From Methanosarcina flavescens (GTDB lineage Archaea > Halobacteriota > Methanosarcinia > Methanosarcinales > Methanosarcinaceae), in the NCBI RefSeq assembly GCF_001304615.2, contig NZ_CP032683.1, positions 1,178,001 through 1,242,000 on the forward strand: DNA of 64,000 bases. The letters are read 5' to 3'. The first letter of the stretch is position 1, and the number at the start of each line of letters is the position of its first letter. The position numbers and the translations under genes are program-made. The notes under the pieces are model-generated. The model saw only the letters and a list, made by a program, of their open reading frames with translations, had not been told where the DNA came from and ran no database searches. Below, in pieces: positions 31,445-39,201 of this stretch.

Positions 31445-32551
31445 ATGAGAGGAACAAAAGGAAAGAATTTTAGAGCTATTAAGCTGACAGTGTTTGCGGT
31501 TATTCTGATAGTTCTCTGCACCTGCTCAGCCGTTTCAGCCTCCAATTTGAGAGTAAGTTCGGCTATTGAAGGAGATTATATTTCCATACAGGCTGCAGTA
31601 GATGCCGCAGAAGCAGGAGATACAATTTTTGTAAGCCCTGGAACCTATGTTGAAAATCTTAAAATAAATAAAGAAGTACGAATCTGGTCGGACTCTAGAA
31701 ACCCAGAAAATACGATCATAAGGGCAGCCGACCCTGAGGAAAGTACTGTTGAAATCAGTGTTGACCGGGTATTTTTTAGCGGATTTGGCATCGAAGGCTC
31801 GGAAAAAGCAGGAATCCTGCTCACAGGGGTCAAAAGCTGCTATATCAATAACAACAGAGTCCTGGGAACTGAATACGGCATTCTTCTCAACGGCTCAGAA
31901 AGGAATACCATAAGAAATAATCTCGTTACCCTCAATGAAATAGGAATAAGGCTTGAAAGCTCAAACTCAAATGATATCCTGAATAATGTAATTGCCTACA
32001 ATTACGGTCCCGGAATCTCCCTAGAGGCAAGCAGCAGGAACCTTATCTATAACAATTACTTCAAGAACGCCGAAAACGTCGAAGAAAAAAGTATAAATGC
32101 GGAAAATATCTGGCAGAGCCCTCTCGTAACAAGACAGAACATAGTCAAAGGCCCTTACATTGCCGGAAACTTCTGGTCTGACCCTGAAGGCAAAGGTTTC
32201 AGCGAAACCTGCGTGGATGAAAACAATAACGGAATTTGCGACACCTCGTATAACATTACAGGTGGAGGAACTGATAAATCCCCACTTTACCCTAAAGTCC
32301 CAAACGCTGTCAAAACCCTTGAAAGTAAACTGAATGTCAGTGCTTATGAGCAGGGACTCGCCGACAGGGAGAACGCAACCAGTCTGGAAACACCAGTAAA
32401 TGAAACTGAAGGATCAGCAGAACCGGAAACCGAAAACACTACCAATGAAGGAGTTCAGGAGGAAGCTGAATCACCTGGTCCGGGGGCTGGAATTGTGGCG
32501 GTAGCTATAGGTGCTGCTTATTTCCTTAGACGAGCAGGTAAACACAAGTGA
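31445..32551 (+). CDS. NosD-like parallel beta-helix surface protein
   Basis: A 368-residue secreted protein. Signal peptide to about residue 32 (hydrophobic core FAVILIVLCTCSAVSAS); IQAAVDAAEAGDTIFVSPGTYVENL begins a right-handed beta-helix of NosD/periplasmic copper-binding type with repeated GI.L..S..N.I..N turns (about 40-230); then a Thr/Glu-rich low-complexity linker with N-glycosylation sites and a C-terminal PGPGAG motif, a hydrophobic segment and RRAGKHK, resembling archaeosortase-type PGF-CTERM signals. Likely exposed on the cell surface. Ligand unknown. Confidence 0.75.
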   Translation: MRGTKGKNFRAIKLTVFAVILIVLCTCSAVSASNLRVSSAIEGDYISIQAAVDAAEAGDTIFVSPGTYVENLKINKEVRIWSDSRNPENTIIRAADPEESTVEISVDRVFFSGFGIEGSEKAGILLTGVKSCYINNNRVLGTEYGILLNGSERNTIRNNLVTLNEIGIRLESSNSNDILNNVIAYNYGPGISLEASSRNLIYNNYFKNAENVEEKSINAENIWQSPLVTRQNIVKGPYIAGNFWSDPEGKGFSETCVDENNNGICDTSYNITGGGTDKSPLYPKVPNAVKTLESKLNVSAYEQGLADRENATSLETPVNETEGSAEPETENTTNEGVQEEAESPGPGAGIVAVAIGAAYFLRRAGKHK

Positions 32552-32834: not shown

Positions 32835-34256
32835 TTAATGCGTCTCAATCAGGTCTATAATTTTCCTTGCCTCTTTGACCATGTAATCCGCTTCTTCAGC
32901 CGAGATCTGCTTGCATACCCTCATTTTTTCAGCGAGGTGAATAAATGACTTAAGCATTGAAACGGCTTTTTTATTGTCACAGTTCTCATAGTGGCACATC
33001 GAGGTATCAAGGAGTGTAGCCAGCCCTGTTTTTGTCTTCACATTGCATTTATATGTGCATTCCACGTATTCTTTGAGAGCCTGTGTCCTGTCTAGCGGTG
33101 TTAACTCGGATGAGCAATTATCTGGAACCTGGGTTTCATTATCGATTCCATTACTGTCATCTGTGTTATTGTCATCCAGAGGTGGCTCTTCATCCCAGGT
33201 AAGAGTGGCCATGTAGATACCACCATCTCCATTATGCCCTTCAATCCAGACTATCTTATCCCCATAGACATCAAGATACCACGCATTTCCTCTAGCAATT
33301 AGAGTTTCAGTGGAAGTGGAGAGATTATACATACGAATATTTGAGTATTCATCCGAATAGCAACTGTCACTCCATACTATTCTGTCACCATATATCTTAG
33401 GAGATCCCGTTGAACATCCTACTTCTTCACTGGCTTTAATCAGGGTTTCTTTCTTAGTGGAGATATCATACATGTAGATATCGTCTTTTCCGTCACGATT
33501 ATCTACCCATACTATCTTATCATCATATATTGAAGGCTTTCCTACTGCTGATTTACTAGTGGTAATCTGAGTCTCCTTATTAGTGGAAAGATTGTACATA
33601 TATATATTAGGATTCAGGATCCCATCGTTAAATTCGGTTCCATATGCATCGCGCGTATCCCAGTATACTATCTTGTCATTGAAGATATCCAGCCGTAGAT
33701 TTGTTCCTGGGTACTGCTGTTCGGTGACAATCTCAATCGTTTCGTTAGTGGAGAGATTATGCACGTAAATGTTATCCTCGGATCCTTGCCAAACTATTTT
33801 ATCACCACTAATTGAAGGAGATTCATAATCATATGCTGATCCATCGGCGGAGATCTGAGTTTCCTTCCCAGTAGAAAGATCGTACATGTAAACATCATAG
33901 TAATAACCGGAGTTAGATCCTTTATTGCGCTCATCTATCCAAACTATTCTGTCACCGTAGATATCCGGAAAATGTGCCGATCCGCTAGTGGTAATTTGAG
34001 TTTCTTTCCCAGTAGATATATCGTACATGTAAATATCTGAGTTTTCGTACCCATTGCGATAATCCTCCCACACTATCTTATCATTATAGATAGCAGGTTG
34101 ATTCCAATATGATAATACACCAGTAGCGATTCGAGTCACAGTAACCGTGGGCGAAACATTTTCCGCAGTAACTGTCGATGCTGTACAGGCAATTAAAAAC
34201 AAAACTAAAGCTATAGAAATTAAACCCGTCTTATAAAATTTCTTCATCTTCTCCAT
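32835..34256 (-). CDS. Secreted TolB-like beta-propeller protein
   Basis: A 473-residue secreted protein. A signal peptide (core LISIALVLFLIACTAST) is followed by about six to seven repeats of about 45-50 residues with the pattern IYGDRIVW-D-R..-DIYMYDLSTGKETQI, the TolB/WD40-like propeller seen in many Methanosarcina surface proteins (about 45-355). After a linker rich in D and N, residues about 385-473 form a helical module (LKEYVECTYKCN, LLDTSMCHYEN, AVSMLKSFIHLAEK, ISAEEADYMV) resembling FIMAH domains. Role in surface adhesion is an inference. Confidence 0.72.
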   Translation of the reverse strand: MEKMKKFYKTGLISIALVLFLIACTASTVTAENVSPTVTVTRIATGVLSYWNQPAIYNDKIVWEDYRNGYENSDIYMYDISTGKETQITTSGSAHFPDIYGDRIVWIDERNKGSNSGYYYDVYMYDLSTGKETQISADGSAYDYESPSISGDKIVWQGSEDNIYVHNLSTNETIEIVTEQQYPGTNLRLDIFNDKIVYWDTRDAYGTEFNDGILNPNIYMYNLSTNKETQITTSKSAVGKPSIYDDKIVWVDNRDGKDDIYMYDISTKKETLIKASEEVGCSTGSPKIYGDRIVWSDSCYSDEYSNIRMYNLSTSTETLIARGNAWYLDVYGDKIVWIEGHNGDGGIYMATLTWDEEPPLDDNNTDDSNGIDNETQVPDNCSSELTPLDRTQALKEYVECTYKCNVKTKTGLATLLDTSMCHYENCDNKKAVSMLKSFIHLAEKMRVCKQISAEEADYMVKEARKIIDLIETH

Positions 34257-34630
34257 TTATACTCATCCCCATTTCTTAAATAAAAAAATTTAATTTAATT
34301 AATAATAATTTAAGCAGTATATTTAATTTTTTTCTTTTAACTTCTATATTTATAAAAATCAAATTTATTTGATGATTTATAAGAAACATTGAATTATAAT
34401 AGAATCAGAACTTAGTATAATTTCCAAAAATATGAGTAAAACCGAACTTAATATGTACAAACAAAATGTTGAAATATAAAAATAATAAAATAGTTACTTT
34501 GAAATTTTCAATTAAGATTAATAAGAATTAAGTAGCTACCTTTTCGGATTAGATATTCTTGGTAAACGAACTTTGACAGGCTGAATAGCCACAAGTGTTC
34601 AATAAAAAAGAAATGAGGATCTTCCTCATT
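34257..34630. other. Spacer upstream of the propeller gene
   Basis: Very AT-rich, about 370 bases. It should hold the promoter of the propeller gene near 34260-34340. No gene seen. Confidence 0.35.
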
Positions 34631-34778: not shown

Positions 34779-35750
34779 TTAGGAGTTGCCGAGAGAGCCG
34801 TATCCGTACCCTTTCGCCACCCAATTATTAACATTGTGATCAGATGGTCCCAGTATATTTGAGCCTGAACCTACCTGAACGTAAGGAGACACGTTCCACA
34901 TAACGTTATCATGAACGCTAATTGACCCTTTTGCGTTCCAATTTCCAACACCTGCACTGCTGCTTGATCCTTTAAAATCATGCATAATGTTGTGATGGAC
35001 TTTCACATTTGTCAGCGTATTTTGGAGCTGAACGCAACACCATCCAGATCCGGCACTACCTGTGAAAGTATTATGGTCAACTTCAATATTTGCACAGTTG
35101 TCTACTCTGACACCTGTGTTGGTCTGAACCTCAACATAATTGTTGTACATTCTGGAATTTTTGGTTCCGGACAGGAATGATACGCCATCATGCCCTGAGG
35201 ACTGTATTCTGCAATTATATACGTTTATTCCAGAGCTTTTACTTATTCTGACACCATCACCATACAGATAGCGATCGAATAAAATGTCATGTACTTTAGC
35301 ATTACTCACAGATATGAATCTTATGCAGTTTCTATATGATCCATGACCTCCATCTTTAGGTCCGGTTGCCGTACTTTGGAATTGAAGATGAGATACTTCA
35401 ACGTTAGAAACACCTGATCCGAATATATATCCAGGCGCTCCTTCGGAGTTACAGACTGAACCGGTGGCAAAGATTATTGTACCGTCGCCTGAACCTTTCA
35501 GTACTACATTAGATTTCAAAACTATAGGTGCACTTATCTTATAAGTGCCAGCACTGAGGATAACAACTCCGGGGTTACTTGGAGTTGCTTTTGATGCTAC
35601 GGAATTTATTGCATTATTAATTGCAGTCTGAGCACCTGACCCAGAAGTAGGATTTACAGTTATTGTATTCTGTGCACTTAACGCAGCGGGTACGGTTGTT
35701 AAAATAAGGCATGTTGCTAGGAATAGGGTTCCTATCTGTCTTTTTAGCAT
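34779..35750 (-). CDS. Secreted right-handed beta-helix protein
   Basis: A 323-residue secreted protein. Signal peptide MLKRQIGTLFLATCLILT to about ALSA; AQTAINNAINSVASKATPSNPGVVILSAGTYKI and VLKSNVVLKGSGDGTIIF begin a pectate-lyase-like right-handed beta-helix with turns such as NCRIQSSGHDGVSFL, NNYVEVQTNTGVRVDN and HHNIMHDFKG. Similar proteins in Methanosarcina are thought to be surface polysaccharide-binding or lyase proteins. GGTGATAC precedes ATG 35750. The C-terminus ends abruptly and out-of-frame coding text follows, so the protein may be shortened. Two broken copies of its 5' end lie upstream. Confidence 0.72.
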   Translation of the reverse strand: MLKRQIGTLFLATCLILTTVPAALSAQNTITVNPTSGSGAQTAINNAINSVASKATPSNPGVVILSAGTYKISAPIVLKSNVVLKGSGDGTIIFATGSVCNSEGAPGYIFGSGVSNVEVSHLQFQSTATGPKDGGHGSYRNCIRFISVSNAKVHDILFDRYLYGDGVRISKSSGINVYNCRIQSSGHDGVSFLSGTKNSRMYNNYVEVQTNTGVRVDNCANIEVDHNTFTGSAGSGWCCVQLQNTLTNVKVHHNIMHDFKGSSSSAGVGNWNAKGSISVHDNVMWNVSPYVQVGSGSNILGPSDHNVNNWVAKGYGYGSLGNS

Positions 35751-35788
35751 CGTATCACCTTTGGGTTGGGTTTGGAATTTGAGTGGAC

Positions 35789-35890
35789 TCAAAAAATTTC
35801 TGGGGTCCTAGTATAATTTCCCAAAGCACATACGGCATTTAAGCTAAGGCACATTGTCAGGAACAGCGTTTCCTGCTCCATTTTTTGCAT
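35789..35890 (-). pseudogene. Decayed copy of the beta-helix leader, copy 2
   Basis: A second start with ribosome binding site AAGGTGATACG and ATG at 35890 gives a 33-residue frame, MQKMEQETLFLTMCLSLN then AVCALGNYTR, ending in TGA. The first 25 residues match the signal peptide of the functional gene (TLFL, CL and AL conserved). Upstream of the ATG the promoter/leader sequence is also copied (GGGTTGGAT, then GAGAAAACTCAAAAAAC). So it is a tandem duplication of the 5' region that has lost the body of the gene. Confidence 0.6.
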
Positions 35891-35935
35891 CGTATCACCT
35901 TGGGTTGGATTTAGAATCTGAGAAAACTCAAAAAA

Positions 35936-36025
35936 CTACAGGGTAGTTGTGTATCCAACAGCTGATACGTTTTTTAAGCAAAACATGCTGTCAGGAATAG
36001 GGTTCCTGAATTCTTTTTTTAGCAT
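35936..36025 (-). pseudogene. Decayed copy of the beta-helix leader, copy 3
   Basis: A third copy with GAGGCGATAC and ATG at 36025. The annotated frame gives MLKKEFRNPIPDSMFCLKN and ends at TAG 35936; shifting the frame by one after the fifth codon restores GTLFLTACFA, which matches the functional signal peptide. The start codons of the three copies are 135 and 140 bases apart. The leader upstream is also conserved (GATTGGATTTAGAATTTGAG). Confidence 0.55.
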
Positions 36026-36947
36026 TGTATCGCCTCTGGATTGGATTTAGAATTTGAGTAAACTCAAACACTCTAGGATTATTGTATATTTTTTCCCAGA
36101 TATTCCTCAAAATTCCATATTACGTTACTCGTAATGTTTTTCCGAACTATCTAATTAGACCGAGTCTGTATCTAACATCTAATTATTCCGGGTCTATACA
36201 GTAATTCAAAGATTCTAATTACGTCTGCGTAATATTTTTGAATCTATCCAATCCGGTTCTCTGCGACCAATGTGGGGCGGACACGCTGCACACAGAGTCC
36301 CACACTCCAATCACATTATAGGGATCAGTCATTGGAAGTGAGGTCGGATTAGAATTTCTGGCTTCTACCACTCAAAATCTGTTACTGATTACAGGACAAT
36401 CCTCTTCCGGTCAATTCTTCCTGTTTTCAATAATGGCAGTCTTTAGCCAGGGAAACTCTTCTTAAAAGTTTCCATTTATTTATTATTAATTACAGGTTGA
36501 CATCAAGGTTTATACAGATTATATTATAAAATATTTTTGCTTTTTTGAAGAGAAATTTGGAAAGAACTGTACACATAAGGAAGAGAAGTTATCAAAAAAA
36601 TAAACGAATATAATTGAATATTTCTACTGCTAATGACAAAAATTTAAAATATAATAATAAAAACTTTTAGAAATTGAAGGAGCAAATATTTTTTTATTTT
36701 CTTAATCCATTAACTAAGAGTTATTATAAAAATAAATACATTAATTTTTAGCCAATAATTATCTCAATAACCATCTTAGAGCTTAAATTATTTTCTTTAA
36801 TTGGATAGTAATAATATTAACTGCTTCAAACGATTAGATACTAAAGAAACTGATTAATCTACATTTTCTTGTTGTGGAAAAATTAAAAAGTTAATGGAAA
36901 ACAGATAAAAGAAAAGGCACAGTTCTCTGTCCCTTTTCTCCGGGCAA
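36026..36947. other. Long spacer between leader copies and gltX
   Basis: About 920 bases. The first part, to 36260, continues the duplicated region and holds two related palindromes (listed separately). 36280-36440 is less AT-rich but has no open frame. From about 36470 the sequence is strongly AT-rich up to the gltX stop codon. No gene supported. Confidence 0.4.
36119..36266. repeat. Duplicated segment with ATTACG/CGTAAT palindromes
   Basis: ATTACG-5-CGTAAT at 36119-36135 and ATTACG-4-CGTAAT at 36218-36233 are each followed by a T run and a similar segment (GAACTATCTAATTAGACCG against GAATCTATCCAATCCGG). The two units are 99 bases apart and diverged. They look like another tandem duplication in the promoter region of the leader copies, possibly protein-binding sites. 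Confidence 0.4.
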
Positions 36948-38732: not shown

Positions 38733-38884
38733 AAGTTTTTTCGAAAACGCTTGAACGAAAACCTGCATGGCGGCGTGGTAAAGCGGCGTAACGCAAGCCT
38801 TTTCAAAAAAGGTTTTATCGCAAACTTTTTCGGAAAAAGTTTGATCAAAAACCGGTATGGAGGCGTGATAAACCGGCGCAACGA
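38733..38884. repeat. Two tandem 90-bp hairpin repeats
   Basis: Unit 1 begins at about 38733 and unit 2 at about 38822. Both start with a T-rich hairpin arm (AAGTTTTTTCGAAAACG and AAACTTTTTCGGAAAAAG) followed by AACC-G-ATGG-GGCGTG-TAAA-CGGCG-AACG. Unit 2's hairpin AAACTTTTT-CGG-AAAAAGTTT is perfect; a further hairpin GCCTTTT/AAAAAGG lies at 38797-38813. It fills the gap between gltX and the wHTH gene and looks like a dispersed intergenic repeat of the genus. Short frames in it on both strands are not genes. Confidence 0.65.
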
Positions 38885-38895
38885 TTGCGGGGATT

Positions 38896-39201
38896 TTATC
38901 TCGGGATAGAAGCTTCAATCTCCCGTATACGAGACAATTTTTCGTTGATTTTCTCAAACTCGCGTTCGAATTCTTCAAGGAATTTAGGAACTGCTTCCCC
39001 TGGCACTGCACCCTGGGCAGAAGGCTTTATAAGGTTAGCTTGCTCAAGAACCCTGAGTGAGTAGCGTACTTTATGGCTCTGCATTCCGGTAACTTCTGCA
39101 AGTTTCAGGATTCCGATAGGAGCTTCTTCAATCACTTTTTTGAGCACCAGAAAATGGCGCTCAGTAAGGTCAAGTTCAGTTCCGATATGCTCAAGAAGCA
39201 T
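38896..39201 (-). CDS. Winged-helix transcriptional regulator
   Basis: A 101-residue protein with a winged helix at about residues 10-75 (HFLVLKKVIEEAPIGILKLAEVTG, HKVRYSLRVLEQANLIKPS) and a helical, charged C-terminus suitable for dimerisation. Family: predicted archaeal wHTH regulators; target unknown. The ATG shares one base with the TGA of the upstream FAH-family gene, so both are cotranslated. It could regulate the FAH/pyr genes, but that is an inference. Confidence 0.75.
   Translation of the reverse strand: MLLEHIGTELDLTERHFLVLKKVIEEAPIGILKLAEVTGMQSHKVRYSLRVLEQANLIKPSAQGAVPGEAVPKFLEEFEREFEKINEKLSRIREIEASIPR

Follow-up and report, generated by a model that had tools for sequence, protein, structure and literature searches.

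A tandem array of gene-start modules in the leader of a beta-helix surface protein gene of Methanosarcina flavescens, a candidate translational attenuator

The window is a 64,000-nucleotide stretch of Methanosarcina flavescens DNA that carries, on the minus strand, a gene for a 323-aa secreted protein with a signal peptide. The product belongs to the right-handed beta-helix (pectate-lyase-like) type, with matches to the Pfam families PF13229 (E=3.7e-10) and PF12708 (E=1.7e-9), and a search for relatives among solved structures returned one spurious match only. About 150 bases past the end of the gene there is a palindrome, AAATGAGGATCTTCCTCATTT (34604-34630), possibly a transcription end or an RNA hairpin. 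A TolB/Kelch-like repeat protein gene (32835-34256) and a second gene for a beta-helix/NosD-type surface protein (31445-32551), which has a different leader, are located nearby, and an inverted repeat with two 21-nt arms, 81% complementary (38811-38853), lies between gltX and a small gene (38896-39201). The features of the gene and its start are as follows:

34779-35750, minus strand: beta-helix gene with its signal peptide; module p0
35719-35733, minus strand: hairpin AGGAACCCTATTCCT within the gene's first codons, from averaged base-pair probabilities
35751-35765, minus strand: R0, ribosome-binding region of the gene, CCCAAAGGTGATACG
35778-35793, minus strand: palindrome TTTGAGTCCACTCAAA, after the T-tract and upstream of R0

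An earlier note on this DNA had described three copies of one module in a row, with ATGs at 35750, 35890 and 36025. The repeat search recovered this row: three tandem modules of about 138 bases each lie on the minus strand, their ATGs fall at exactly these positions, and the spacings are 139 and 136. When the gene module was used as the query against the whole 3.28-Mb genome, the two upstream copies came up with E values of 1e-13 and 7e-16, far too low for a chance repeat. The modules are clearly duplicates of the gene's own start. Each of them is built, in order, of a T-tract, a palindrome, a ribosome site, an ATG and signal-peptide codons. The segment that had been called promoter-like corresponds to the T-tract and the palindrome TTTGAG-N4-CTCAAA, but inspection of the modules by eye revealed no TATA-like box in them; a conserved TATA-like box is located about 500 nt farther upstream. 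The two upstream modules contain these features:

35789-35890, minus strand: middle leader ORF, module p1, 33 codons; frame open in related arrays
35820-35834, minus strand: anti-RBS segment A1, CGTATGTGCTTTGGG, complementary to R0 and also to R1
35859-35874, minus strand: hairpin AGGAAACGCTGTTCCT in leader ORF p1, from averaged base-pair probabilities
35891-35908, minus strand: R1, ribosome-binding region of leader ORF p1, CCAACCCAAGGTGATACG
35917-35932, minus strand: palindrome of module p1, imperfect in most species
35936-36025, minus strand: distal leader ORF, module p2, 29 codons, with a +1/-1 compensated frameshift
35955-35969, minus strand: anti-RBS segment A2, CGTATCAGCTGTTGG, complementary to R1 (-20.8 kcal/mol, p 0.005 against shuffles)
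35993-36007, minus strand: hairpin AGGAACCCTATTCCT in leader ORF p2, kept though out of frame here
36026-36037, minus strand: R2, ribosome site of the first leader ORF, divergent type AGAGGCGATACA
36053-36068, minus strand: palindrome TTTGAGTTTACTCAAA of module p2

Of the 60 genomes searched, 29 contained modules; all 29 are Methanosarcina (29 of the 31 genomes of that genus), and the other 17 genera among the 60 genomes had none. The arrays consist of one to three modules, mostly 136-144 bases apart with a period of about 138-142, and precede genes for beta-helix proteins of two families. Genes of the window's own, or main, family encode ~322 or ~600 aa and mostly have two or three modules; those of a ~298-aa family have one or two. 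The neighbour gltX is common to some array loci and absent beside others, so it is with the gene that the array travels. Modules at the same position in different species are more similar (0.83-0.91) than modules at different positions within one genome (0.77-0.79), so the module positions predate the species. The nearest neighbour was found at the same position for 17 of 19 p2 modules and 15 of 19 p1 modules, while the other four p1 modules matched the p1 of two-module arrays. Pairwise identity is about 0.80-0.90 in the modules and up to 0.94-0.97 just upstream of the array, compared with 0.75 at the fourfold sites of the gene; by this measure, the array is at least as conserved as the gene's fourfold-degenerate sites.

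Upstream modules of the main family retain the ribosome site, the start and some 25-48 codons of open frame, so that a short leader ORF with its own start and ribosome site stands upstream of the gene, as in erm-type leaders. Three frames scored as broken by the script have an intact second ATG (L090), read as a GTG start (L085) or restart at an in-frame ATG (L093). The earlier note was right about the open frame of 33 codons in the middle copy and about a frameshift in the distal one; there, however, the +1 shift is offset by a -1 shift and the frame stays open for 29 codons. This compensated frameshift occurs in three species including this one, with the frame open and AGGAACCCTATTCCT essentially intact. 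At the ribosome sites of the first leader ORFs in related main-family arrays, GGTGAT is replaced by GGCGAT.

Changes were then counted on the gene tree, and premature stops, scored with indel-bearing sequences left out, numbered 0 against 4.8 expected in p1 (134 changes) and 0 against 3.1 expected in p2 (77 changes). Nonsynonymous changes were close to expectation (99 vs 94 in p1 and 56 vs 52 in p2), substitutions counted on the tree gave no codon periodicity in the leader ORFs, and dN/dS-style support for functional leader peptides was not found. An early hint of codon periodicity in p1 was dropped after the tree-based counts. On these results, the leader frames look to be kept for translation and not for the peptide. 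An array of small signal-like peptides that might be expressed had also been envisaged, and the frames are indeed kept open as if translated, but selection on the peptide sequence was not seen. Several arrays of the ~298-aa family have a weak ribosome site at the first module, and three of the leader ORFs there (L097, L100 and L101) stop ahead of the anti segment.

Averaged base-pair probabilities of the 19 three-module arrays showed that the end of a leader ORF pairs with the next ribosome-binding region, which in the window corresponds to A2 with R1 and A1 with R0. The same probabilities gave recurrent pairs for the gene-start hairpin AGGAACCCTATTCCT, with one A-U to G-C change. A stretch of about 15 nt near the leader-ORF end was complementary to the ribosome-binding site of the next module in 51 of the 54 pairs tested, counted as pairs that beat dinucleotide shuffles at p <= 0.05, with the arrays related by descent and the p-values not independent tests. 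The mean duplex energy of the 54 pairs was about -18 kcal/mol, compared with about -10 kcal/mol for the homologous codons of the gene. The anti-RBS stretch comes in three versions (CGTATCAACTGTTGG, CGTATGTGCTTTGGG and CGTATCAGCTTTGGG), each of which pairs with this one target, and a similar number of random substitutions in this stretch loses much of the pairing energy. The core of R0 is identical in 24 of 27 related multi-module genes; since ribosome sites are nearly invariant, the anti-RBS helix is not provable by true covariation.

The best partner of the gene's ribosome site was A1 (11) or A2 (8) in all 19 three-module leaders, and complementarity of this site to the leader-ORF region is again as in erm-type systems. 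Upstream pairing was stronger for multi-module genes (-17.9 kcal/mol) than for 227 neighbouring genes (-14.0) and for single-module genes (-11.7). Some upstream stretch reaches -17 kcal/mol in 18% of the 227 other genes, which weighs against the explanation preferred below. The single-module genes have no anti-RBS arrangement, so not every member of the family depends on it. Each anti segment also pairs with its own module's site almost as well as with the next one (p2, -15.5 vs -18.3 kcal/mol; p1, -17.7 vs -18.0 kcal/mol), and when p1 and the gene start were folded alone, the anti segment paired with p1's own site. Exclusive pairings, and hence a switch, are therefore possible, and for the same reason control may run in either direction. 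Blocking the anti segment raised the predicted openness of the SD from 0.34 to 0.44, a modest change, and a control block gave no rise. In most ~298-aa-family arrays the anti segment is still strong. An anti-RBS segment for the first module was sought within the block upstream of the array, described next, and no consistent site was found there.

Upstream of the array there is a conserved block, here called U, with these features:

36071-36506, minus strand: structured leader block U, ~430 nt, adjoining the first module (52 loci, folding, covariation)
36119-36135, minus strand: hairpin H7, ATTACG-AGTAA-CGTAAT
36151-36186, minus strand: hairpin H6, with compensatory changes
36218-36233, minus strand: hairpin H5, ATTACG-CAGA-CGTAAT
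36259-36297, minus strand: helix H4, CTCTGTG...TCGCAGAG
36522-36531, minus strand: TATA-like box TTTTATAATA, conserved across the 52 aligned loci and predicted to be the promoter for the entire leader

At the 52 loci, block U starts just after the TATA-like box and adjoins the first module of one-, two- and three-module genes alike. It was found in 28 of the 31 Methanosarcina genomes, and among 81 other genomes of the family there was one marginal match only (E 0.0056). U folds better than shuffled sequences, with a mean z of -3.9 (antisense, -3.1), and G-U pairs at the helix positions favour the sense strand. The MAFFT-based RNAalifold consensus over the whole block was weak, so the overall fold is provisional, and averaged base-pair probabilities with a hand-set structure were used in its place. 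In the hand-set helices H4 to H7, 92.5% of cells pair, and covariation was above that of all 500 shuffles. The H6 changes among the 52 sequences (U-A to C-G in 17, A-U to G-C in 10) provide the conserved structure with compensatory changes that marks riboswitches and structured leaders. A search of Rfam 15 matched no family at its gathering score, and U is a candidate structured RNA outside Rfam. The near-invariant hairpins H5 and H7 share the stem ATTACG/CGTAAT and may pair with each other over about 100 nt; they could act as an RNA switch, or else as a pair of sites for protein binding.

We propose, with about even confidence, that the array forms part of an mRNA leader and acts there as a translational attenuator or relay, with leader-ORF translation setting which ribosome site is masked; the leader is probably a switch for a secreted surface protein and not genetic debris. 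A single promoter upstream of U would give one RNA that carries, in order, U, the short leader ORFs (one or two) and the gene. The leader ORFs would be ancient copies of the gene's own start, and in each dead module the last sense codons would have turned into an anti-ribosome-site able to pair with the next module's site or its own. In the untranslated state, A2 would mask R1 and A1 would mask R0; a ribosome traversing or pausing in a leader ORF would open the stems, or R1 would capture A1, and R0 would be freed. Two exclusive states are thus envisaged, A2:R1 with A1:R0 (gene site masked) and R1:A1 (gene site free). The divergent GGCGAT site of the first main-family leader ORFs would weaken self-masking at the first step, and once a ribosome occupied the first ORF, A2 would be displaced and the remaining pairings could shift. 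The modules would in this way attenuate translation of the secreted protein, or act on it as a relay, and U may sense the signal. A study of M. mazei (PMC11456600) places about 10% of newly found small ORFs in 5' leaders, which makes translated leader ORFs plausible in this genus. Somewhat below an even chance, and more tentative, is the proposal of a serial archaeal relay in which leader ORFs from tandem gene starts have a sense strand antisense to neighbouring ribosome sites, forming a multi-step attenuator preceded by a structured, genus-specific sensor domain.

Other explanations of the array have to be weighed against the attenuator or relay. A structured leader in which U and the module hairpins serve as RNA or protein-binding elements and the anti-RBS pairing forms a static mask or thermosensor, with the ORFs as passengers whose translation has no role, would account for constraint at the nucleotide level, for the absence of codon periodicity and for the retention of AGGAACCCTATTCCT even out of frame. 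The ~298-aa family, in which the anti segment is strong while first ribosome sites are weak or degraded and frames end early, fits masking that depends less on translation, and this keeps the structured leader alive. Premature stops are nevertheless avoided, and the leader-ORF ATGs and ribosome sites are conserved in the main family, so we regard it as rather unlikely. Transcription attenuation, with leader-ORF translation governing termination at the T6-7 tracts that start each module, appears less probable still. Short hairpins of the AACTATCTTATAGTT type precede the T-tract at module junctions, and U-tracts are known archaeal termination signals (PMC8716108); however, these tracts are short and variable in length, and the strongest recurring pairing covers the ribosome sites instead.

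The earlier note read the upstream copies as decayed gene duplicates or recombination by-products. Duplication from the gene's own start is clear and the copy number ranges from 1 to 3, as such decay would have it, but the relaxed constraint, randomly broken frames and lineage-specific occurrence expected of it are not seen. Instead, the array is genus-wide, with constant spacing, orthologous positions with their own sequence, open frames that avoid stops, maintained complementarity and conservation at least equal to fourfold sites. This reading fails, and we give it very little probability. Even less probable is a secretion monitor, in which signal-peptide-like leader peptides would arrest or target the ribosome in the manner of SecM and report secretion status. 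The leader peptides do resemble the gene's signal peptide; yet no amino-acid selection was detected, which also speaks against programmed stalling on a conserved peptide as in erm-type leaders, and in three species the compensated frameshift destroys the hydrophobic core of the distal peptide.

Bacteria are well known to use leader-ORF attenuation, and no archaeal case of this build is described in the literature that we searched. As in erm/cat translational attenuation, there is a short leader ORF, the main ribosome site would be masked by the leader-ORF region, and ribosome position would decide its exposure; the present leader differs in being archaeal, in having up to two serial leader ORFs from the gene's own start and in showing no sign of peptide selection. 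The ordered segments A2-R1-A1-R0 permit exclusive pairings like the alternative 1:2/2:3/3:4 pairings of trp-type attenuators, whereas the predicted output here is ribosome access and not a terminator. Translational coupling by RNA unfolding is known from MS2 coat-lysis and E. coli rpmI-rplT (reviewed in PMC12548453), and here too upstream-ORF translation would be predicted to open the structure at the downstream ribosome site; in contrast, the upstream ORFs here are short, repeated, leader-only modules, and the anti-site segment fits either of two sites. Structured 5' leaders and riboswitch candidates in Rfam likewise have a long conserved leader with covarying helices, but the present one lies outside those families, is restricted to one genus and is a candidate by structure. 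Like Methanosarcina disaggregatase and related surface beta-helix proteins, the product is a secreted beta-helix protein of the genus.

At this locus the putative evolutionary origin is visible, since duplicated gene starts would have turned into regulatory ORFs. The natural copy number of 1, 2 or 3 across species and paralogues makes each added step testable in genetically tractable Methanosarcina. One genome has a 337-aa reading frame that arises from in-frame fusion of the first leader ORF to the gene (L092:6272-6500, minus strand).
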